From NCBI RefSeq assembly GCF_008831545.1, contig NZ_CP044525.1:124001-188000 (forward strand): a stretch of DNA of 64,000 bases, read 5' to 3'. This document shows positions 17,337 to 56,686 of this stretch, piece by piece. The stretch is from Halorussus halophilus (lineage in GTDB: Archaea; Halobacteriota; Halobacteria; Halobacteriales; Haladaptataceae). The translations under genes and the position numbers were made by a program. Numbering within the stretch: position 1 is the first letter of the stretch; the number at the start of each line of letters is the position of its first letter. The notes below the pieces were generated by a model, which was given only the letters and a program-made list of their open reading frames with translations, was not told the origin of the DNA and made no database searches.

Positions 17337-19016
17337 TTACTTATCGACTGCACATTGGGTGACGAAGTCTTTCACGTACGTCGGGTAGAAGTCGTAGTTC
17401 TTGACGTAGTTCTTGTGTGCGCCGTAGATGGTGGGGTGGTACGTGCCAACCCATGCACCTTCCCTGTGATTGATTTCTTGGCACTTCTTCAAGTTCTTCG
17501 CCTTCGTCTCACCGTCCGTCGCCGTGACTGCCTTATTGAACGCCTCGTCGAACTTCTTGTTACTCCAGTTCGCTTCGTTCCACGGTCCTTCCGACCGGAG
17601 CGCAAGTTGGAGCACCGTTTCGCCCAGCACACGCGTCGAGTAGTTCGTGATGTACCATTCGCCGTCCTTGTTCCAGTAATCCGCGAGCCACTTCTCCTCC
17701 GTGAGTTTCTTGATCTCGAACTCGATACCGACGTTCCGCATCTGTTGTTGGAACAGTTGCGCGATAGTCTCCTTCGCGGGGACTCCGTCGTCGTAGTGGA
17801 AGGTCTTGACTTCGAACCCGCCTGCGTGCCCGGCCTCCTTGAGCAGTTGTTTCGCTTTCTTTGGCTTGGCAGTCTTTCCGAACGTGTCGTCCACCGGAAG
17901 GTTGTCGTTGTAGTACGTGTGTGCCGGCGTAATTCCGCTGTGATGTCCGAGGACGCCCTCCCCGGAGACTGCGGTGACGATTTGTTTCCGGTCGAGCGCG
18001 TACTTGATGGCTTTTCGGACCTTCGGGTCGTCGAACGGTTTGATCTTCGTGTCGAGGACGATGGGGAACTGGAGTCCGGATGCTTGCTTCTCGACTTTCG
18101 CACTGTTCGGAACGCGCTTTTTGACTTTCGAGGAGATACGGCTCACCGCGTCGATACTTCCGTCGGACAGTGCGTTGACGCGTTGAATTTCGTCCGAGAG
18201 GATGTCCCACTCTAATTTGTCGAAGTAGGGCAGGGGCTTGTCATCTACACCCTTGCGGTGGTAGTCTGACTTCGCCTCGAACGTGAGCTTATTCTTCTGG
18301 TTCCAGTTGGTGAGGGTTAGCTGGCCGGTACCGTAATCGGTGTTTTCGAGTTTTTTCGGGTCGTCGTCGAGGATTTTCTTGGGGACGACGAAGAACGCAC
18401 CACCGGTTTCGGCGATGCGTTTCGGGAAGTCGATGTCCGAATTCGCCAGCGTAATCTCGACCGTCTTGTCGTCAACGGCTTTCACTTGTTCGACGTCACC
18501 CAGACTCGACGCGGACCCTGAAAACTCCTCGGACGTCAGGTACTCGTAGGTCGCTTTCACGTCGCTCGCCGTAGCCGTCTGCCCGTCGAGGTTTGCGAAT
18601 GTCGCGTTTTCTTGGAGTTTGAACGTCCACTTGGTGTAGTCGTCGTTATGCTCCCACTCTTTTGCGAGGTTCGGGTGGACTTTGAAATCCTGGTCGACGC
18701 GCGTGAGGCGGTCGTACATCACCTCTCCTGTCAGGAGATCCGCGAGGAATCCCTTGAATGGGTTCATCGTCTGGATGCCTTGCTGGGCTCCGATCTTGAA
18801 CGTGCCGCCACGGGGAAGACTATCAGGGGTCGTTTCGGTCGATGATTCGGTGTCGTCGCCGGCAGTCGTTCCGCCGCTCGAGGTTCCATCCTGACTACTG
18901 TTGTTTCCTGAGCAGCCTGCCAGACCTGTGAGACCGACCGCGCCGAGCGTTGCTCCGATTTTTAGAGTCGCACGTCTATTCGTCTCGGTTGGGTTCGCTT
19001 CCCCGGGCTTTGTCAT
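17337..19016 (-). CDS. ABC transporter substrate-binding lipoprotein (SBP_bac_5)
   Basis: A 559-residue binding protein. It has a twin-arginine signal (NRRATLKIGA) and a lipobox with the anchor cysteine at residue 35 (LTGLAGC), followed by a Ser/Thr/Gly linker. The mature part has the normal SBP_bac_5 order: N-lobe start GGTFKIGAQQG, the hinge region with DFPKRIAETGGAFFVVPKK, and a C-lobe ending near WVGTYHPTIYGAH. It captures the substrate outside the membrane for the importer encoded downstream. A TGAACATGTTCA palindrome lies 42 bp before the start. Confidence 0.92.
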   Translation of the reverse strand: MTKPGEANPTETNRRATLKIGATLGAVGLTGLAGCSGNNSSQDGTSSGGTTAGDDTESSTETTPDSLPRGGTFKIGAQQGIQTMNPFKGFLADLLTGEVMYDRLTRVDQDFKVHPNLAKEWEHNDDYTKWTFKLQENATFANLDGQTATASDVKATYEYLTSEEFSGSASSLGDVEQVKAVDDKTVEITLANSDIDFPKRIAETGGAFFVVPKKILDDDPKKLENTDYGTGQLTLTNWNQKNKLTFEAKSDYHRKGVDDKPLPYFDKLEWDILSDEIQRVNALSDGSIDAVSRISSKVKKRVPNSAKVEKQASGLQFPIVLDTKIKPFDDPKVRKAIKYALDRKQIVTAVSGEGVLGHHSGITPAHTYYNDNLPVDDTFGKTAKPKKAKQLLKEAGHAGGFEVKTFHYDDGVPAKETIAQLFQQQMRNVGIEFEIKKLTEEKWLADYWNKDGEWYITNYSTRVLGETVLQLALRSEGPWNEANWSNKKFDEAFNKAVTATDGETKAKNLKKCQEINHREGAWVGTYHPTIYGAHKNYVKNYDFYPTYVKDFVTQCAVDK

Positions 19017-49832: not shown

Positions 49833-50462
49833 GTGCGGAGCATCGAACTGGACAATGCGTTTTACGTCGAAGACGGGACGTGGATCGAATCGCTCACGAT
49901 TTCGTCCAACGAGTCGTTCGACATCTCCGCGACAGTCGAACAGATTTCGGGTGTGTCGTTGTATTATCGTCACGAGATTCCAACGGGCCCGACGGAGGCG
50001 GCCATCGAACGTGTGACGGTGTTAGCGAACGAGTCGTTTCCGTTCATTCTGGGTGTCGTCCTTCGGCAGGAAGCGATTCCGAATCGGATCGTCTTGCGGG
50101 ACAATCAGTTCTCTGTCGTGACGACAGTCCGGGATTGGGAGCAGTTTCGTGAACTTGCCGACGAGGTGCAACAGAAACTCGGACAGTTCGACTTGCAGAA
50201 GGTCAACAATATCGAGCGTCCCGGTGAACCGCTCGACGGTGGCCGACTTTCGGAGATTCTCATCACGAAACTGACGGAGGTACAGATCGAGACGATTGAG
50301 ACGGCATACGATTTGGGGTATTTCGAAGTGCCGCGTGAGTCGTCTGCCACTGAGGTCGCTGAGGCACTGGAGATTAGTCAGTCTACGCTGAGTGAGCGTC
50401 TTCGGACGGCGCAACTTCGTCTGTTCGAACTAATTTTCGGGTCTAATACGAATAGCATCTAA
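49833..50462 (+). CDS. HTH-10 family regulator without a normal start
   Basis: From GTG 49833 this gives 209 residues with a sensor region and a clear C-terminal HTH-10 domain (KLTEVQIETIETAYDLGYFEVP, SSATEVAEALEISQSTLSERLRTAQLR). Coding sense extends upstream in frame to 49758 (IILRIEFRTQPTGVLERLDERLPD), which looks like a true N-terminal strand, but this part has no ATG, GTG or TTG before the TGA at 49755. Either translation begins at GTG 49833, an unusual ATT is used, or the start codon was lost and the gene is decaying. No clear target; the ABC operon starts 195 bases downstream. Confidence 0.75.
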   Translation: MRSIELDNAFYVEDGTWIESLTISSNESFDISATVEQISGVSLYYRHEIPTGPTEAAIERVTVLANESFPFILGVVLRQEAIPNRIVLRDNQFSVVTTVRDWEQFRELADEVQQKLGQFDLQKVNNIERPGEPLDGGRLSEILITKLTEVQIETIETAYDLGYFEVPRESSATEVAEALEISQSTLSERLRTAQLRLFELIFGSNTNSI

Positions 50463-50657
50463 CTTGTTTGTGGAATCGAAGGTGTGACCGCGGCTATAGG
50501 TTAGGATAGACACCATTTTCGACGATTTTGCTATAGTACTTACAAGAAATTCGTGTTAGTTCGGGAATGTTCGTGACGTACCTTATAAAGAGCGATATAT
50601 ATCGGTGCCTATCGGGAGTATATCTTTTATACCGTCTGCTATTTGCCCACACGGTTC

Positions 50658-52631
50658 ATGCCAGAACGAAGCCAAACGGACGAGACCCCCGACGGGCAAA
50701 CCGGCAACTCAGGACTGTCCCGACGCCAGTACCTACAAGCGTCGGCACTAGCGAGCACAGCCGGCATCGCCGGACTCGCGGGATGTAACGGCAACTCCTC
50801 AGAGAACAACAGCGACAACAACCAATCCAACAGTGGCGGCACCGACGCGAAGGCCCAGGTGCCAGAAGGCGTCCAAGAACAAGTCGAAACCAAGTACTGG
50901 CACGACTGGTCGAACATCGACGCCGACAAACCACCGATGGAGTACACCGCCAAGGCCGGAGCGGCACTCGACCCAGTCACCATGGAGTACTCCAGTGAAG
51001 ACGACCCGTGGATGCGCGAACACGCACTCATGATGAAACGCGCCGTCGAAGACCTCGGCGCACCCACCGACCTCACCGACCGACCGCTCAACCAACTGTA
51101 CGCCCAGAGTTGGAACACCCCGGGACTCGAGAAGATGATCTCGATGAGCACCCACGGTCCCGACCCCCAACGCGGTCTCGACCCCAACCCCCTGCTGATG
51201 CGACGGTACAAAGACAACCCCTCCAACTACGACAACTACTGGAACCCGAAACTCAACGAACTCCTCGACAAACAGCGTCAAATCACCGGCAACGACCAAA
51301 AACGCCAAGAGCTAGTCAACGAGGCCCAAGCGGTGTTCGCAGAAGACGTGGGCGGCATCATCTCACTGTTCTCTGACGTTATCACCGCCGTCAACACGAA
51401 CAAGTGGAACGGCTACGTGAAGACGCCCGGCAACGGCCCGACCGGCGACTCCTTCCAGTGGACGGAAGTGAACCTCCAACCGAAGACGGATGAGACGACG
51501 TTCGTCAAGGGGACCACTACGTCGATGAACTCCCTGAACCTCCCGTGGGCGGCTGGTGGTGCCGAGGAGAAGCGACTCAAGTACGTCTACGACGGTCTAT
51601 TCGACGCGTCACCGGACCTCGAAATCGTGCCCGCACTCGCAACGAACGCAGAGTTCGCCGACGACACGACCGTCGACGTCCAACTCCGAAAAGGCGTAAA
51701 GTGGCACGATGGCGAGTCGTTCACCGCAGAGGACGTGAAGTTCTCCGTCGAACTGTATATGGAGAACACCTCGACCAGTCAGGCGACGTTCTACGACCCC
51801 ATCGAGAGCGTCAAAGTTAACGGGACCCACAGTGTCACATTCAACCTCAAGCGACCGGACGCGTCGTTCCTGACCCAACGCGTCGTCCGAAGCGCCATCA
51901 TTCCCAAGCACAAGTGGAAGGACGTGGACAATCCGTCCCAGCACAACCCGAAGAATCCGGTCGGTACTGGCCCGTTCAAGTTCGAAAACTGGGATCAAGG
52001 CTCTCGGTTCGAAGTCTCGGCGAACAAGGGCCACTGGATGTTCGACGACCAGTGGCGCAAGAAGACGCTCGGCGACCACGCCGCGAGCGGCGACGGTATC
52101 GACCGCATCGTCTGGGTGAACGTCGGCAACGTCGATGCGCTCATCGGTGCCGTCCAGAACGGTAAAATCGACGCCATCGGCTCGACGCTGTCGAACGGAC
52201 AGGCAGACCGTGCGGCCTCGACCAGCGGCATCGAGAAGAAAGTCACCAAGAACTTCGCACCGCTCGACGCGAAACTGATGTTCTCCGCGCCGCTCATCCG
52301 GGACAAAGAGTTCCGGGTCGCGCTGGCGAAAGCGACCGACGCGAAGGGCTTCGTCGAGGACGTGCTGTCGGGACGCGGAACCCCCGGCAAGAACAACCCG
52401 ATTTCACCGCTCACGCAGTGGCACAACGCCGACACCAAAGAGTACGGGTACAACGTCGAGGAGGCCCGAACCATCCTGAAGAAAGCGGGCTACACGTGGG
52501 ACGACAACGACAACCTTCGGTTCCCGAACGGCGAGGCGTGGGGTGCGTTCGTCGAACGCGTCCAGAACGGCAACACGCACAAGCGCCGTGAAGAACTCGG
52601 CCAGAAGGACTTCTCGAAGTCCGGGTCGTAA
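50658..52631 (+). CDS. Circularly permuted ABC substrate-binding lipoprotein (SBP_bac_5)
   Basis: A 657-residue binding protein, longer than usual. A twin-arginine signal (SRRQYLQASALAS) and lipobox (LAGLAGC-type, C43) are followed by an Asn/Ser linker. Residues about 90-265 read like the C-terminal lobe of the family (DPWMREHALMMKRAVEDLG; YWNPKLNELLDKQRQ; AEDVGGIISLFSDV; NKWNGYV). From about 282 the normal N-lobe begins (FVKGTTTSMNSL, LRKGVKWHDGESFTAEDV near 345-360, NPVGTGPFKF near 433) and the protein ends where the normal C-lobe would start (YGYNVEEARTILKKAGYTW). The order is thus permuted. It is the first gene of the importer and CoA-pathway operon. Confidence 0.85.
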   Translation: MPERSQTDETPDGQTGNSGLSRRQYLQASALASTAGIAGLAGCNGNSSENNSDNNQSNSGGTDAKAQVPEGVQEQVETKYWHDWSNIDADKPPMEYTAKAGAALDPVTMEYSSEDDPWMREHALMMKRAVEDLGAPTDLTDRPLNQLYAQSWNTPGLEKMISMSTHGPDPQRGLDPNPLLMRRYKDNPSNYDNYWNPKLNELLDKQRQITGNDQKRQELVNEAQAVFAEDVGGIISLFSDVITAVNTNKWNGYVKTPGNGPTGDSFQWTEVNLQPKTDETTFVKGTTTSMNSLNLPWAAGGAEEKRLKYVYDGLFDASPDLEIVPALATNAEFADDTTVDVQLRKGVKWHDGESFTAEDVKFSVELYMENTSTSQATFYDPIESVKVNGTHSVTFNLKRPDASFLTQRVVRSAIIPKHKWKDVDNPSQHNPKNPVGTGPFKFENWDQGSRFEVSANKGHWMFDDQWRKKTLGDHAASGDGIDRIVWVNVGNVDALIGAVQNGKIDAIGSTLSNGQADRAASTSGIEKKVTKNFAPLDAKLMFSAPLIRDKEFRVALAKATDAKGFVEDVLSGRGTPGKNNPISPLTQWHNADTKEYGYNVEEARTILKKAGYTWDDNDNLRFPNGEAWGAFVERVQNGNTHKRREELGQKDFSKSGS

Positions 52632-52682: not shown

Positions 52683-53930
52683 ATGCCAATCACAAACCAT
52701 ACACAACCGCTCGACGGACTCACGGTCATCGACGCCGCTTCGCTGTACGCCGGACCGCTCTCGGCGATGCTGCTGGGCGACTTCGGCGCTGACGTGATCA
52801 AAGTCGAGCATCCAGAATCAGGGGACGCCCTCCGGGACTTCGGTGAGGGTGACGAATCACTGTCGTGGAAGTGGGTCAACCGCAACAAAAAGAGCGTGCC
52901 GCTCGACCTCCATACCGAGAAGGGCCAGCGACTGTTTCGCGAACTCGTCGCGGACGCAGACGTGCTGGTCGAGAACTTCCGGCCGGGAACGCTCGAACGC
53001 TGGAACGTCGGCTGGGAGACGCTCTCGGACGTGAATCCCGGTCTCGTGATGGTTCGAACCACGGGATTCGGCCAGACGGGACCGTACAAGGACCGCCCCG
53101 GTTTCGGCACGTTAGTCGAAGCGATGAGCGGGTACGCCTATTCGACAGGACAACCGGACGGCCCGCCGACGCTTCCGCCCGTGGCGATGGCTGACTCCAT
53201 CTGTGCGCTCCACTCGGTGTACGCCACGATGATGGCGTTGTACTGGCGGGACACGAGCGACGGTACTGGCCAGTACATCGATTCGGCCATCTTGGAGAAC
53301 ATGTTCGGGTTGCTCGGCGACCACGTCATCGAACACCACCAGCACGAAACCGACCACCGGCGGTCGGGCAACCGGAGCAGTCGAACCGCCCCGCGGAACA
53401 CCTACCAGACGAAAGACGACCGCTGGGTCGCTATCTCGGGAAGCGCCCCGAGTATCGCCGACCGAATCCTCCGTATCGTCGGTGGCGAGGAACTCGCAGA
53501 AGACGAGCGGTTCCAGACGATGGACGACCGACTCGCGCACGTCGAGGAGTTAGACGAAATCATCGGCGACTGGATGGCCGACCACACGCGCGAGGAAGTC
53601 ATCGACATCTTCGAAGAGCATGAAGCGGCCATCGGTCCGGTCTACAACATGGCCGACATCTTCGAGGACCCGCACTTCGAGGCCCGCGACTCGGTCATCA
53701 CCGTCGAAGACGGCGACGAGGAAGTCGGGATGCGCGGCGTCTTCCCGAAACTCTCGGAGACGCCCGGCGAGGTGGTTCACGCCGGTCCAGACATCGGCGA
53801 ACACACGGTCGAAGTCTTGGGCGAGCAGACGGACCTAACTGCCGAGGAGATTCGAACGCTCGCCGACGAGGGCGTCACCGCCGTCGATGAGAACGCGGCG
53901 AACACCGTGGAGAGTGAGAGCGATGACTAG
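52683..53930 (+). CDS. CaiB/BaiF-type (family III) CoA-transferase
   Basis: A 415-residue family III CoA-transferase. The N-terminal fold is clear (LDGLTVIDAASLYAGPLSAMLLGDFGADVIKVEHP), with NRNKKSVPLDL, NFRPGTLERW, TTGFGQTGPYKDRPGFGTLVEAMSG, and ADSICALHSVYATMMAL. The catalytic aspartate normally sits in this last strand region. The enzyme moves CoA between carboxylic acids through an aspartyl anhydride. The following CitE-like gene overlaps it by eight bases, so the pair likely activates and then cleaves a C5-type dicarboxylate. Confidence 0.92.
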   Translation: MPITNHTQPLDGLTVIDAASLYAGPLSAMLLGDFGADVIKVEHPESGDALRDFGEGDESLSWKWVNRNKKSVPLDLHTEKGQRLFRELVADADVLVENFRPGTLERWNVGWETLSDVNPGLVMVRTTGFGQTGPYKDRPGFGTLVEAMSGYAYSTGQPDGPPTLPPVAMADSICALHSVYATMMALYWRDTSDGTGQYIDSAILENMFGLLGDHVIEHHQHETDHRRSGNRSSRTAPRNTYQTKDDRWVAISGSAPSIADRILRIVGGEELAEDERFQTMDDRLAHVEELDEIIGDWMADHTREEVIDIFEEHEAAIGPVYNMADIFEDPHFEARDSVITVEDGDEEVGMRGVFPKLSETPGEVVHAGPDIGEHTVEVLGEQTDLTAEEIRTLADEGVTAVDENAANTVESESDD

Positions 53931-54786
53931 CGGTCTCAGGCGCTCGTTCCTCTACACGCCCGCCGACGACCCCGAAATGATGCGGAAGGCCGCGAAGACC
54001 GACGCGGACGCCGTCATCTACGACCTCGAAGATGCGGTTCCGGACTCGGCAGTTCCCGAGGCCCGAGAGAACGTGGCGGACGTGACCGCGACGGCCGAGT
54101 TCGGCGACACGGAGCGATGCGTTCGCATCAACGGCGCACAGACCCAGCGATGGTTGAACGACCTGCTCGCAGTGGTCGAGAGCGACTCGGATTCGGTCAT
54201 CGTTCCGATGATCGAGACGCCTAGCGAACTAGAGACGTTCGTCTCGGTCGCTCGGCAGGCCGACGGTGAGACGCCGGAGTTCATTCCTATCGTCGAAACG
54301 CCACGCGGGCTGTTTTCGGCGGTCGAAATCGCAGAACGCGGCGGTGAACTCCCGGAAGTAACTGGCTTCTCGTTCGGATTCGGCGACTACACGCGCGCCA
54401 TCGGCGCAACCGGCCGCCCCGAACGAGTCTTGGAGTTCGTGAGCCAGCTCACGGTCGGTGCCGCCGCAGTCGGTGGTCTCGACCCGATTGCGACCGTCTA
54501 CCAAGACTTTCAGGACACGGACGGATTGCGTGAATCGGCCCGGCGGGCCCGCGAAATCGGGTACGTCGGACAGAAGGCAATCCATCCTGCTCAGATAGAG
54601 GTGCTAAACGACGTGTACACGCCGACAGCGGACGAGGTCGAACAGGCACGACGATTCGTAGAGCAGTTCGACGCCTCGGCGAGAGACTCGCTCGTCGTCG
54701 ACGGCGTCTTCCTCGACACGGCCATCGTCGAGCAGTACGAGACGGTGCTGGCTCGGCACGAACAAGTCGAGGAGGTGAGCGGATGA
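53923..54786 (+). CDS. CitE-like CoA-ester lyase (HpcH/HpaI aldolase family)
   Basis: A 287-residue TIM-barrel lyase. It begins RRSFLYTPADDPEMMRKAAKTDADAVIYDLEDAVP; the metal ligands are the Glu in IPIVETPRGL and the Asp in GFGDYTRAIGA; and GQKAIHPAQIEVLNDVYTP is the C-terminal signature. Relatives split malyl-, citramalyl- or beta-methylmalyl-CoA to a 2-oxo acid or glyoxylate and an acyl-CoA. ATG 53923 overlaps the CoA-transferase stop; the earlier frame start at 53887 is rejected. The next gene overlaps by four bases. Confidence 0.9.
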   Translation: MTSGLRRSFLYTPADDPEMMRKAAKTDADAVIYDLEDAVPDSAVPEARENVADVTATAEFGDTERCVRINGAQTQRWLNDLLAVVESDSDSVIVPMIETPSELETFVSVARQADGETPEFIPIVETPRGLFSAVEIAERGGELPEVTGFSFGFGDYTRAIGATGRPERVLEFVSQLTVGAAAVGGLDPIATVYQDFQDTDGLRESARRAREIGYVGQKAIHPAQIEVLNDVYTPTADEVEQARRFVEQFDASARDSLVVDGVFLDTAIVEQYETVLARHEQVEEVSG

Positions 54787-55775
54787 GCAGTTTCCAGCGG
54801 TTCTTGGCGAAGCGGGTCGCCATCGCGATGATGCTAACGTTCGTCGCCGTCTCGATAATCTTCGTCGTCCTCCGGATGCTCCCGGGAAGTCCGTTCGAGG
54901 CGCTCATCACGGCGGGCAATCTCACGCAGGACCAAGTCGACCAGATTATGGCGCTGTACGGTCTCGACAAGCCGCTCTGGCAGCAGTACGTCATCTACCT
55001 GAAGAACATCCTCACCTTCCAGTTCGGCTACTCGATTCTCCAGAGCCGGCAGGTGTGGTCGATCCTCGCGCCGAAACTGGCGAACACGCTCGTCCTGCTC
55101 GTGCCCGCACTGACTACGACGGCCATCCTGAGCACGCTGCTCGGCATGTACGTCGGCTGGAACCGCGGGTCGAAACTGGAGACCATCAGCATCATCGGGA
55201 CGACGTTCCTTCGCTCGACCCCCGTGTTCATCACAGCCATCTTCTTCGTCATCATCTTCTCCTACACGCTGGGCGTCGCCCCGGCGTTCGGAATGCGGTC
55301 GGTGACGGCGTCACCGGACGGACTACTGGAAACGTATCTCTCGATGGACTTCCTGCACCACTACATTCTGCCGTTCACCGTGACGGTGCTGTTCTACAGC
55401 GGCGACTTCCTCCTGCTCGCCCGCAACGGCGTCGTGGAGAAGAAGGGTTCTGAGTTCCTCAAACTCCATCGCGCGAAGGGTCTCTCGGAGAACGAGCAGC
55501 TGATGCGCGCCGGGCGGAACTCGATGCTTCCGGTACTCACCTACTTCGCGCTCCGACTCGGGATGATATTCCAAGGCCTCATCCTCCTCGAAGTCGTCTT
55601 CGCGTGGCCCGGCATCGGCCGGGCGCTCGTGCTGGCGATCCAACAACAGGACTATCCACTCGTGCAGGCTGCCGTCTTCATCATGGCACTTGCGGTCATC
55701 GTCATGAACCTGCTCGCAGACGTCTTGTACGCGTACTTCGATCCGACGGTCACGGTTGATGGAGGTGGTGCCTGA
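54783..55775 (+). CDS. ABC transporter permease (DppB type)
   Basis: A 330-residue permease with six helices. The start (FLAKRVAIAMMLTFVAVSIIFVVLRMLPGSPFEALI) and the EAA region (EFLKLHRAKGLSENEQLMRAGRNSML) are standard. It overlaps the lyase gene upstream (ATGA) and the DppC gene downstream by one base, so transport and catabolism are physically joined in one operon. Confidence 0.93.
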   Translation: MSSFQRFLAKRVAIAMMLTFVAVSIIFVVLRMLPGSPFEALITAGNLTQDQVDQIMALYGLDKPLWQQYVIYLKNILTFQFGYSILQSRQVWSILAPKLANTLVLLVPALTTTAILSTLLGMYVGWNRGSKLETISIIGTTFLRSTPVFITAIFFVIIFSYTLGVAPAFGMRSVTASPDGLLETYLSMDFLHHYILPFTVTVLFYSGDFLLLARNGVVEKKGSEFLKLHRAKGLSENEQLMRAGRNSMLPVLTYFALRLGMIFQGLILLEVVFAWPGIGRALVLAIQQQDYPLVQAAVFIMALAVIVMNLLADVLYAYFDPTVTVDGGGA

Positions 55776-56686
55776 TGGCAACCTCCTCTGTCACGTGGCG
55801 GGACCGCCTCTCGAACACGGCGGAGCGAGCGAAGTCTCAGCTCGAATTTATCGCGCAGGACCGGATGGCGCTCGTGGGCGTTCTCGTCCTCGCGGCGTTC
55901 GTCTTCCTCGGGCTATTCGGGCCGATGCTCGCGCCCCACGACCCCATCGAACACGACATGCGGACCGACTCCGGCGAACTCATGCGCGTCGAGGCTCCGA
56001 ACGGCGAGGCGCTGTTCGGAACGACGGCGTACGGCAAGGACGTGTTCAGTCAGTTCCTCGCAGGCGCACGACCGACGCTCATCGTCGGCCTCTTCGGCGG
56101 CCTCGGAACCGGACTCCTCGGCTTCCTCGTCGGCCTCGTCAGCGGCTACTTCGGCGGGTGGGTGGACGAGTTGCTGATGCGCATCACCGACCTGACGTTC
56201 TCGCTGCCGTTCATGCCGATGGCGCTGCTGTTGTTGACGTTCGTCACGCCGAGCATCTGGCTTATCACGGCTATCATCGCCGGGTTCCTCTGGAAGATGC
56301 CTGCTCGCGTCGTTCGTGCGGAGGTGCTGACGTTACGGGAGCGTACCTTCGTCAAATCCGCACGAGCGAGCGGTGCGAGTCACCCACGGACGATGTTCCT
56401 GCACGTCGCACCGAACGTCCTGCCCATCGGTTTCCTCTACACGGCGTACGGCGTCGCGTGGTCCATCGCCTCGGCGGCCAGTCTGGCGTTCCTCGGCTTC
56501 GGCGACCCGACGACGACCAGTTGGGGACGGATGCTCCGGCAAGTGTTCGAGTCCGGTAACATCCGCATCGCGTGGTGGTGGGTGTTCCCACCAGCACTCG
56601 GCATCGCAGCGGTCACCACGTCGGTGTTCCTCATCGGTAGAGCCTACGAAGAAGTGATCAACCCCGAAATCCAGACCGAACAATGA
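55775..56686 (+). CDS. ABC transporter permease (DppC type)
   Basis: A 303-residue permease with an OppC N-terminal domain (MALVGVLVLAAFVFLGLFGPMLAPHDPIEHDM, then GEALFGTTAYGKDVFSQ) and six helices. The EAA loop is RVVRAEVLTLRERTFVKSARASGASHPRTM. The ATPase gene starts four bases before its stop. Confidence 0.93.
   Translation: MATSSVTWRDRLSNTAERAKSQLEFIAQDRMALVGVLVLAAFVFLGLFGPMLAPHDPIEHDMRTDSGELMRVEAPNGEALFGTTAYGKDVFSQFLAGARPTLIVGLFGGLGTGLLGFLVGLVSGYFGGWVDELLMRITDLTFSLPFMPMALLLLTFVTPSIWLITAIIAGFLWKMPARVVRAEVLTLRERTFVKSARASGASHPRTMFLHVAPNVLPIGFLYTAYGVAWSIASAASLAFLGFGDPTTTSWGRMLRQVFESGNIRIAWWWVFPPALGIAAVTTSVFLIGRAYEEVINPEIQTEQ

Follow-up and report, generated by a model that had tools for sequence, protein, structure and literature searches.

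The gene described here lies at positions 50658-52631 (plus strand) of a 64,000-nucleotide stretch of DNA from Halorussus halophilus (contig NZ_CP044525.1, positions 124,001 to 188,000), hereafter referred to as the window. It occupies a single uninterrupted open reading frame (ORF; 50643-52631, plus strand), in which the ATG at 50658 opens 657 codons. An earlier note on this DNA, made from its letters alone, had described an intact gene for a lipoprotein in which the two parts of a substrate-binding protein (SBP) of the SBP_bac_5 family stand in reversed order. Both the intact frame and the lipoprotein signal were found as described, the latter being of the twin-arginine translocation (Tat) type (SRRQYLQ...LAGC). 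The sequence confirms the reversed order, and, with a structural model taken into account, the 657-residue lipoprotein is best explained, with high confidence, as a family-5 substrate-binding protein (SBP_bac_5, cluster C) whose chain has been circularly permuted. Among 60 permuted proteins, residues R22, R23, G42 and C43 were almost unchanged. The parts of the protein and the surrounding genes are listed in Table 1.

The swapped order was apparent from profile searches. The Pfam model PF00496 aligned from its first position, with profile positions 1-296 of 368 matching residues 322-637 (195 bits, compared with a gathering score of 32.4). The alignment breaks off at profile position 296, and the protein ends shortly after, at residue 657. 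No SBP model was matched by the first 281 residues in the Pfam scan. A Pfam search of the two halves, as proposed in the earlier note, consequently gave the expected result for the C-terminal part, which aligned to the start of the profile, and left the N-terminal half undetected. Since Pfam was blind to this half, we built our own hidden Markov models (HMMs) from 15 SBPs of ordinary order, comprising 13 from the same genome and two bacterial ones. Their alignment was cut in the loop that follows the AGY helix, giving HMM A (before the cut) and HMM B (after it, to the C-terminus). On the permuted protein, for which HMM residue positions are ORF coordinates minus 23, HMM B matched residues 113-257 (E 1.2e-9) and HMM A matched residues 284-613 (E 5e-62), stopping at position 317 of 319. 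The SBP_bac_5 content is complete, as both A and B were found, and the ordinary A-then-B order is absent. Given that B precedes A, the protein was classed as a permuted variant and not as an ordinary member.

Comparisons with other proteins agreed with this assignment. When the N-terminal part alone was used in tblastn, it retrieved the C-terminal ends of ordinary SBPs from Cetobacterium and Paenibacillus. A profile of the permuted junction aligned, at positions 2-139, with residues 358-495 of the 507 residues of DppA in the PDB, and its right-hand part corresponded to N-terminal residues ~6-86 of solved PDB chains. The junction was spanned by none of the 60 best PDB chains matching this profile. 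These matches bear out the claims that the N-terminal residues carry what is normally the closing part of an SBP and that the normal N-lobe follows them. The paralogue at 17337-19016, which had been named as the ordinary counterpart, does show A followed by B.

Table 1. Features of the permuted gene, its neighbours and the comparison gene (positions in the window; CoA, coenzyme A; aa, amino acids)
Feature	Position	Strand	Basis and remarks
HTH_10 (bacterio-opsin-activator type) regulator, upstream	49833..50462	+	PF04967 3e-17
Circularly permuted SBP_bac_5 lipoprotein gene (very probable), 657 aa	50658..52631	+	ORF, Pfam, own HMMs
Tat-type signal peptide and lipobox (SRRQYLQ...LAGC, Cys43)	50658..50786	+	sequence
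N-terminal extension specific to the subfamily, residues ~66-100, ETKYWHDWSNIDADKPPMEYTA	50853..50957	+	
Segment B (C-terminal part of ordinary SBP_bac_5), residues 107-257	50976..51428	+	HMM B, DppA mapping
Junction joining old C-terminus to old N-terminus, residues 258-283	51429..51506	+	HMM positions, dN/dS
Segment A (N-terminal part of ordinary SBP_bac_5), residues 284-613, AGY at end	51507..52496	+	HMM A, PF00496
C-terminal tail beyond the cut, residues 614-657, ending near ...QxDFS	52497..52628	+	kept in subfamily
Family III CoA-transferase (CaiB-like)	52683..53930	+	PF02515 2.8e-119; below every NCBIfam equivalog cut-off
HpcH/HpaI-CitE-like C-C lyase	53887..54786	+	PF03328 1.4e-32; best NCBIfam RipC_Ccl, under cut-off
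DppB/OppB-type permease	54783..55775	+	profile matches
DppC/OppC-type permease	55775..56686	+	profile matches
Fused DppD-DppF ATPase, 695 aa	56683..58770	+	profile matches
Ordinary-order SBP_bac_5 paralogue, comparison gene (L009)	17337..19016	-	HMMs: A 75-400, then B 405-560

The same order of segments, which the earlier note had proposed to look for, was found in many independently sequenced haloarchaeal genomes and on complete plasmids. Beyond what that note had proposed, the gene belongs to a large haloarchaeal family, and separate permutations of the same SBP family occur in other lineages. Relatives with 46-73% identity over practically the full length are present in many haloarchaeal genomes, including complete plasmids of Haladaptatus, Halarchaeum, Natrinema and Halostagnicola. 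The close subfamily (E <= 1.7e-94, whole junction; our own count from the match table) is found in 68 of 391 Halobacteria genomes, and a permuted member of any kind (match E <= 1e-25) is found in 235 of them, or ~60% of the species genomes sampled. For weaker matches (E ~1e-24 to 1e-39), all 12 genes that were fetched had the B-A order. The extension at residues ~66-100 is common to the close relatives and is lacking in the other permuted subfamilies. Of the 66 haloarchaeal permuted ORFs, 58 showed the combined twin-arginine and lipobox pattern; in some of the remaining eight, a lipobox is present but escaped the pattern. The ratio of nonsynonymous to synonymous substitution rates (dN/dS), computed with our own NG86 script, was 0.09-0.25 for the whole gene and reached its lowest values, 0.03-0.07, at residues 265-300, which include the junction. 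These low ratios indicate that both halves and their join are under purifying selection, which supports the earlier view of a functional rearrangement as opposed to debris. In trees built on the un-permuted A+B columns, 15 of the 16 haloarchaeal permuted rows cluster, save for one long-branched ordinary row (L014), and a single clade of all 16 was not rejected by the approximately unbiased test (p-AU 0.346).

Structure prediction had also been proposed as a check in the earlier note. AlphaFold2, supplied with 60 permuted sequences, gave a single compact model (predicted local distance difference test, pLDDT, 88.5; predicted template modelling score, pTM, 0.86), in which disorder is limited to residues 1-59 and the first strand of segment B is E107-111. 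When this model was compared with the PDB by Foldseek, the matches were cluster C proteins, including AppA, NikZ and DppA, and the 50 best were all cluster C chains. The query template modelling score was ~0.4 over ~370-440 columns, a result to be expected when a permuted chain is aligned sequentially. The chain would fold as the usual two-lobe Venus flytrap. Its old C-terminus is connected to what used to be the mature N-terminus, and the new termini lie in the second lobe, in the loop that follows the AGY helix. Since segment B now comes directly behind the signal peptide and lipid anchor, the tether would sit on the second lobe and not on the first.

Permuted members were also found outside Halobacteria when GTDB genomes were scanned with a junction alignment based on Archaeoglobi and the matches were classified with HMMs A and B. 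Three Archaeoglobi genes (L082-L084) are permuted and cut as in haloarchaea. Residues 33-359 of an ordinary Archaeoglobus protein (L158, 3879-5450) correspond to residues 213-539 of the permuted L083 (3327-4943) with 83.5% identity, and residues 350-521 correspond to residues 40-211 with 83.7% identity, making the two genes a recent before/after pair of the permutation. At a related locus (L165), the ordinary gene is co-directional with dppBCDF; at L083, the permuted gene is inverted with respect to the matching dpp genes. A further gene, from Archaeoglobus JdFR-37 (L081:3733-5496), has the B-A order with a PGF-CTERM tail, scoring over the Pfam cut-off, at the new C-terminus, so that its anchor would be at the other end of the chain from the lipid anchor of the haloarchaeal proteins.

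Other archaeal groups are cut at other points. In Bathyarchaeota and Crenarchaeota soil metagenome-assembled genomes (MAGs; L104, L106, L107), the order is A(254-316 or 227-316)-B-A(3-221), and their sister L108 is cut at the AGY loop. Desulfurococcales and their allies exhibit two types that are sisters of each other. The first is cut at A 182-188 (L110, L114, L124, L127, L130, L155) and the second within B at ~67-90 (L109, L113, L115, L116, L122, L156); in the swapped blocks the two are 57-67% identical. SBPs of both types have an N-terminal transmembrane segment and a Ser/Thr stalk. For L114, AlphaFold2 with six sequences gave a pLDDT of 42.8 and a pTM of 0.30, values too low to be informative. 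Many of the non-haloarchaeal permuted genes come from MAGs, and every main archaeal type was seen in several of these. A less certain case, possibly a permutation in Chloroflexota, comes from a single Anaerolineae MAG (L105:3234-5753), in which an SBP_bac_3 domain is followed by A(101-317)-B-A(5-95), cut at A 95-101; the gene adjoins an ordinary-order SBP fusion paralogue. A tblastn search of plasmids that used the Archaeoglobus junction as query revealed no permuted bacterial gene in the 40 best records, in which the matches always fell into two pieces over ~1.3-1.6 kb, as ordinary order predicts.

In the trees, the permuted Archaeoglobi genes L082-L084 are nested among ordinary Archaeoglobi genes with full support. 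A single permutation shared by haloarchaea and L082-L084, which have the same cut, was rejected for this reason. Full support also unites L108 with L104-L107, and one Desulfurococcales type with the other. The starred branches of the tree force at least four changes, be they gains or reversals, among the non-haloarchaeal permuted rows. Because permuted Archaeoglobi genes nest among ordinary ones, independent gains appear to be the simpler reading of these sequences.

With regard to the mechanism, the most likely origin would be an in-frame tandem duplication, giving A-B-A-B, from which the leading A and the closing B were later trimmed away. An in-frame tandem is the intermediate predicted by the model of permutation by duplication (PMC3320104). 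One gene (L085:2310-5387, G500:C18) has precisely this arrangement, with two complete SBP_bac_5 copies behind one signal peptide in 1026 residues. Together with the sister families with different cuts, it is consistent with the duplication route. The other standard model, fission followed by re-fusion of two half-proteins (PMC3320104), is unlikely here, though it retains some weight. No separate half-proteins were found among the classified ORFs, for which the cut-off of 380 residues would miss short ones, a complete tandem gene exists in L085, and sister families differing in their cuts (A188 and B67; L108 and A254) are what the trimming of a tandem gene would naturally yield. Taken together, it is probable that cluster C SBPs have been permuted repeatedly in Archaea, namely in Halobacteria, Archaeoglobi, a Bathyarchaeota/Euryarchaeota clade and Desulfurococcales, and possibly in bacterial Chloroflexota, with at least four cut points and probably via differently trimmed A-B-A-B tandems. 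Each event would re-seat the tether, be it a lipid anchor or a transmembrane stalk, on a different face, so that permutation may alter how the receptor meets its transporter.

Some observations weigh against the reading of the gene as a permuted SBP derived from a tandem duplication. The haloarchaeal permuted subfamilies are mutually divergent, and one of them, L086, groups apart from the rest. The tandem gene L085 comes from the same phylum, yet from outside Halobacteria. Finally, the permutation could be real and the protein a domain-swapped dimer, the A segment of one chain being completed by the B segment of a second. The linker is short, but in ordinary cluster C proteins the two termini are close together, and the monomer model is confident in both segments, which makes a dimer of this kind very improbable.

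Circular permutation also accounts for the gene better than a fusion of two fragments, in which the tail of one SBP would have been joined to a truncated second SBP as a dead or partly functional chimaera. This explanation has the greater divergence of segment B than of segment A, as judged by their HMM E-values, in its favour. Nevertheless, order and cut are identical in a large number of genomes, purifying selection is strong on both halves and on the junction, and segment A stops at the very loop where segment B starts, with little sequence lost or repeated. The model is compact and confident, and a complete swap is visible in the Archaeoglobi pair at 83-84% identity. A fragment fusion is therefore largely refuted and retains hardly any credibility. 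An assembly or annotation artefact, for which nothing was found in favour, can be dismissed, as the ORF is unbroken in an assembly of four contigs, a second permuted gene is present elsewhere in this genome, and the order is kept in the complete plasmids and many other genomes mentioned above.

The genes surrounding the permuted SBP point to its role. The sequence contains a secretion and tether signal, and Opp/Dpp permease and ATPase genes are encoded alongside, so that the partnership with a transporter is firm by context. The upstream HTH_10 regulator occupies the same position at three related loci (L049, L050, L098). In Haladaptatus, Halostagnicola and G032, too, the relatives are accompanied by the regulator and transporter genes. 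From its sequence, the protein is likely an ordinary tethered receptor that feeds the adjacent Dpp-type importer. The ligand would be captured and the receptor would then dock on the co-encoded DppBC permease, with DppDF as the power source. The CoA-transferase and CitE-like lyase genes (52683-54786) between the SBP and permease genes are also present in Haladaptatus and are absent from Halostagnicola and G032. The ligand might conceivably be a carboxylic acid (dicarboxylate-like) that is processed by these two enzymes; this suggestion is a weak one, because their genes are missing from some related operons.

Permuted substrate-binding proteins are already known. TpMglB-2 (Tp0684) of Treponema pallidum is a glucose-binding protein with a natural permuted topology, designated 'Type Ic / Cluster Bc', which is tethered to the membrane, binds its ligand and changes conformation; permuted relatives are found in other treponemes and in many Gram-positive bacteria (PMC4990184). 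The haloarchaeal protein resembles it as a natural permuted, membrane-tethered SBP, its ligand binding being predicted. Whereas TpMglB-2 is a bacterial protein of cluster B (type I) with termini moved within the N lobe, the haloarchaeal protein is archaeal, belongs to cluster C/SBP_bac_5, has its new termini in the second lobe and comes from a family with several cut points. Its SBP match to SBP_bac_5 and its 50 best fold matches, all to cluster C, speak against membership of cluster B. For TpMglB-2, Brautigam et al. proposed that the reason for the permutation has to do with the tether (PMC4990184). A similar reason may apply here, as a hypothesis only, since ordinary archaeal SBPs are also tethered. 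The haloarchaeal protein shares with DppA, OppA, AppA and NikA (PF00496) homology over both halves, a lipoprotein signal and Dpp/Opp permease and ATPase partners, and differs from them in having the order B-A instead of A-B. Natural permutations are also known for saposin/swaposin and for DNA methyltransferases, with documented intermediates for the methyltransferases (PMC3320104). The present case is likewise a natural permutation that probably arose by duplication and trimming, but it concerns another family, and it includes several cuts in sister lineages and a recent pair of ordinary and permuted genes.

TpMglB-2 was the sole natural permuted binding protein found in the literature searched, most subscription papers being outside the search. 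That literature yielded no report of a cluster C family that is permuted, of its distribution across Halobacteria or of repeated, differently cut events, and no permuted cluster C protein was found in the PDB. SBPs are a textbook case of the two-lobe receptor and often serve as scaffolds for biosensors, and a large archaeal class has a stable permuted cluster C topology that the annotation label 'ABC transporter substrate-binding protein' (ABC, ATP-binding cassette) hides. We regard the recurrent phenomenon as more interesting than the single gene, as repeated swaps amount to a natural experiment in protein rearrangement. The Archaeoglobi pair, the differently cut sister families and the tandem gene make it possible to test duplication and fission models on real lineages. 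With the same material, one could test directly whether the position of the tether is important for binding-protein-dependent transport.

The genome of H. halophilus contains a second permuted SBP, of another subfamily (C3:92431-94215, 594 residues), which is ~24% identical to the one in the window, colinear with it and adjoins its own dppC-dppD-dppF-dppB genes. This protein (L013:432-2216, corresponding to G000:C3:92431-94215) has LAGR at the lipobox and not LAGC, and may escape lipidation.
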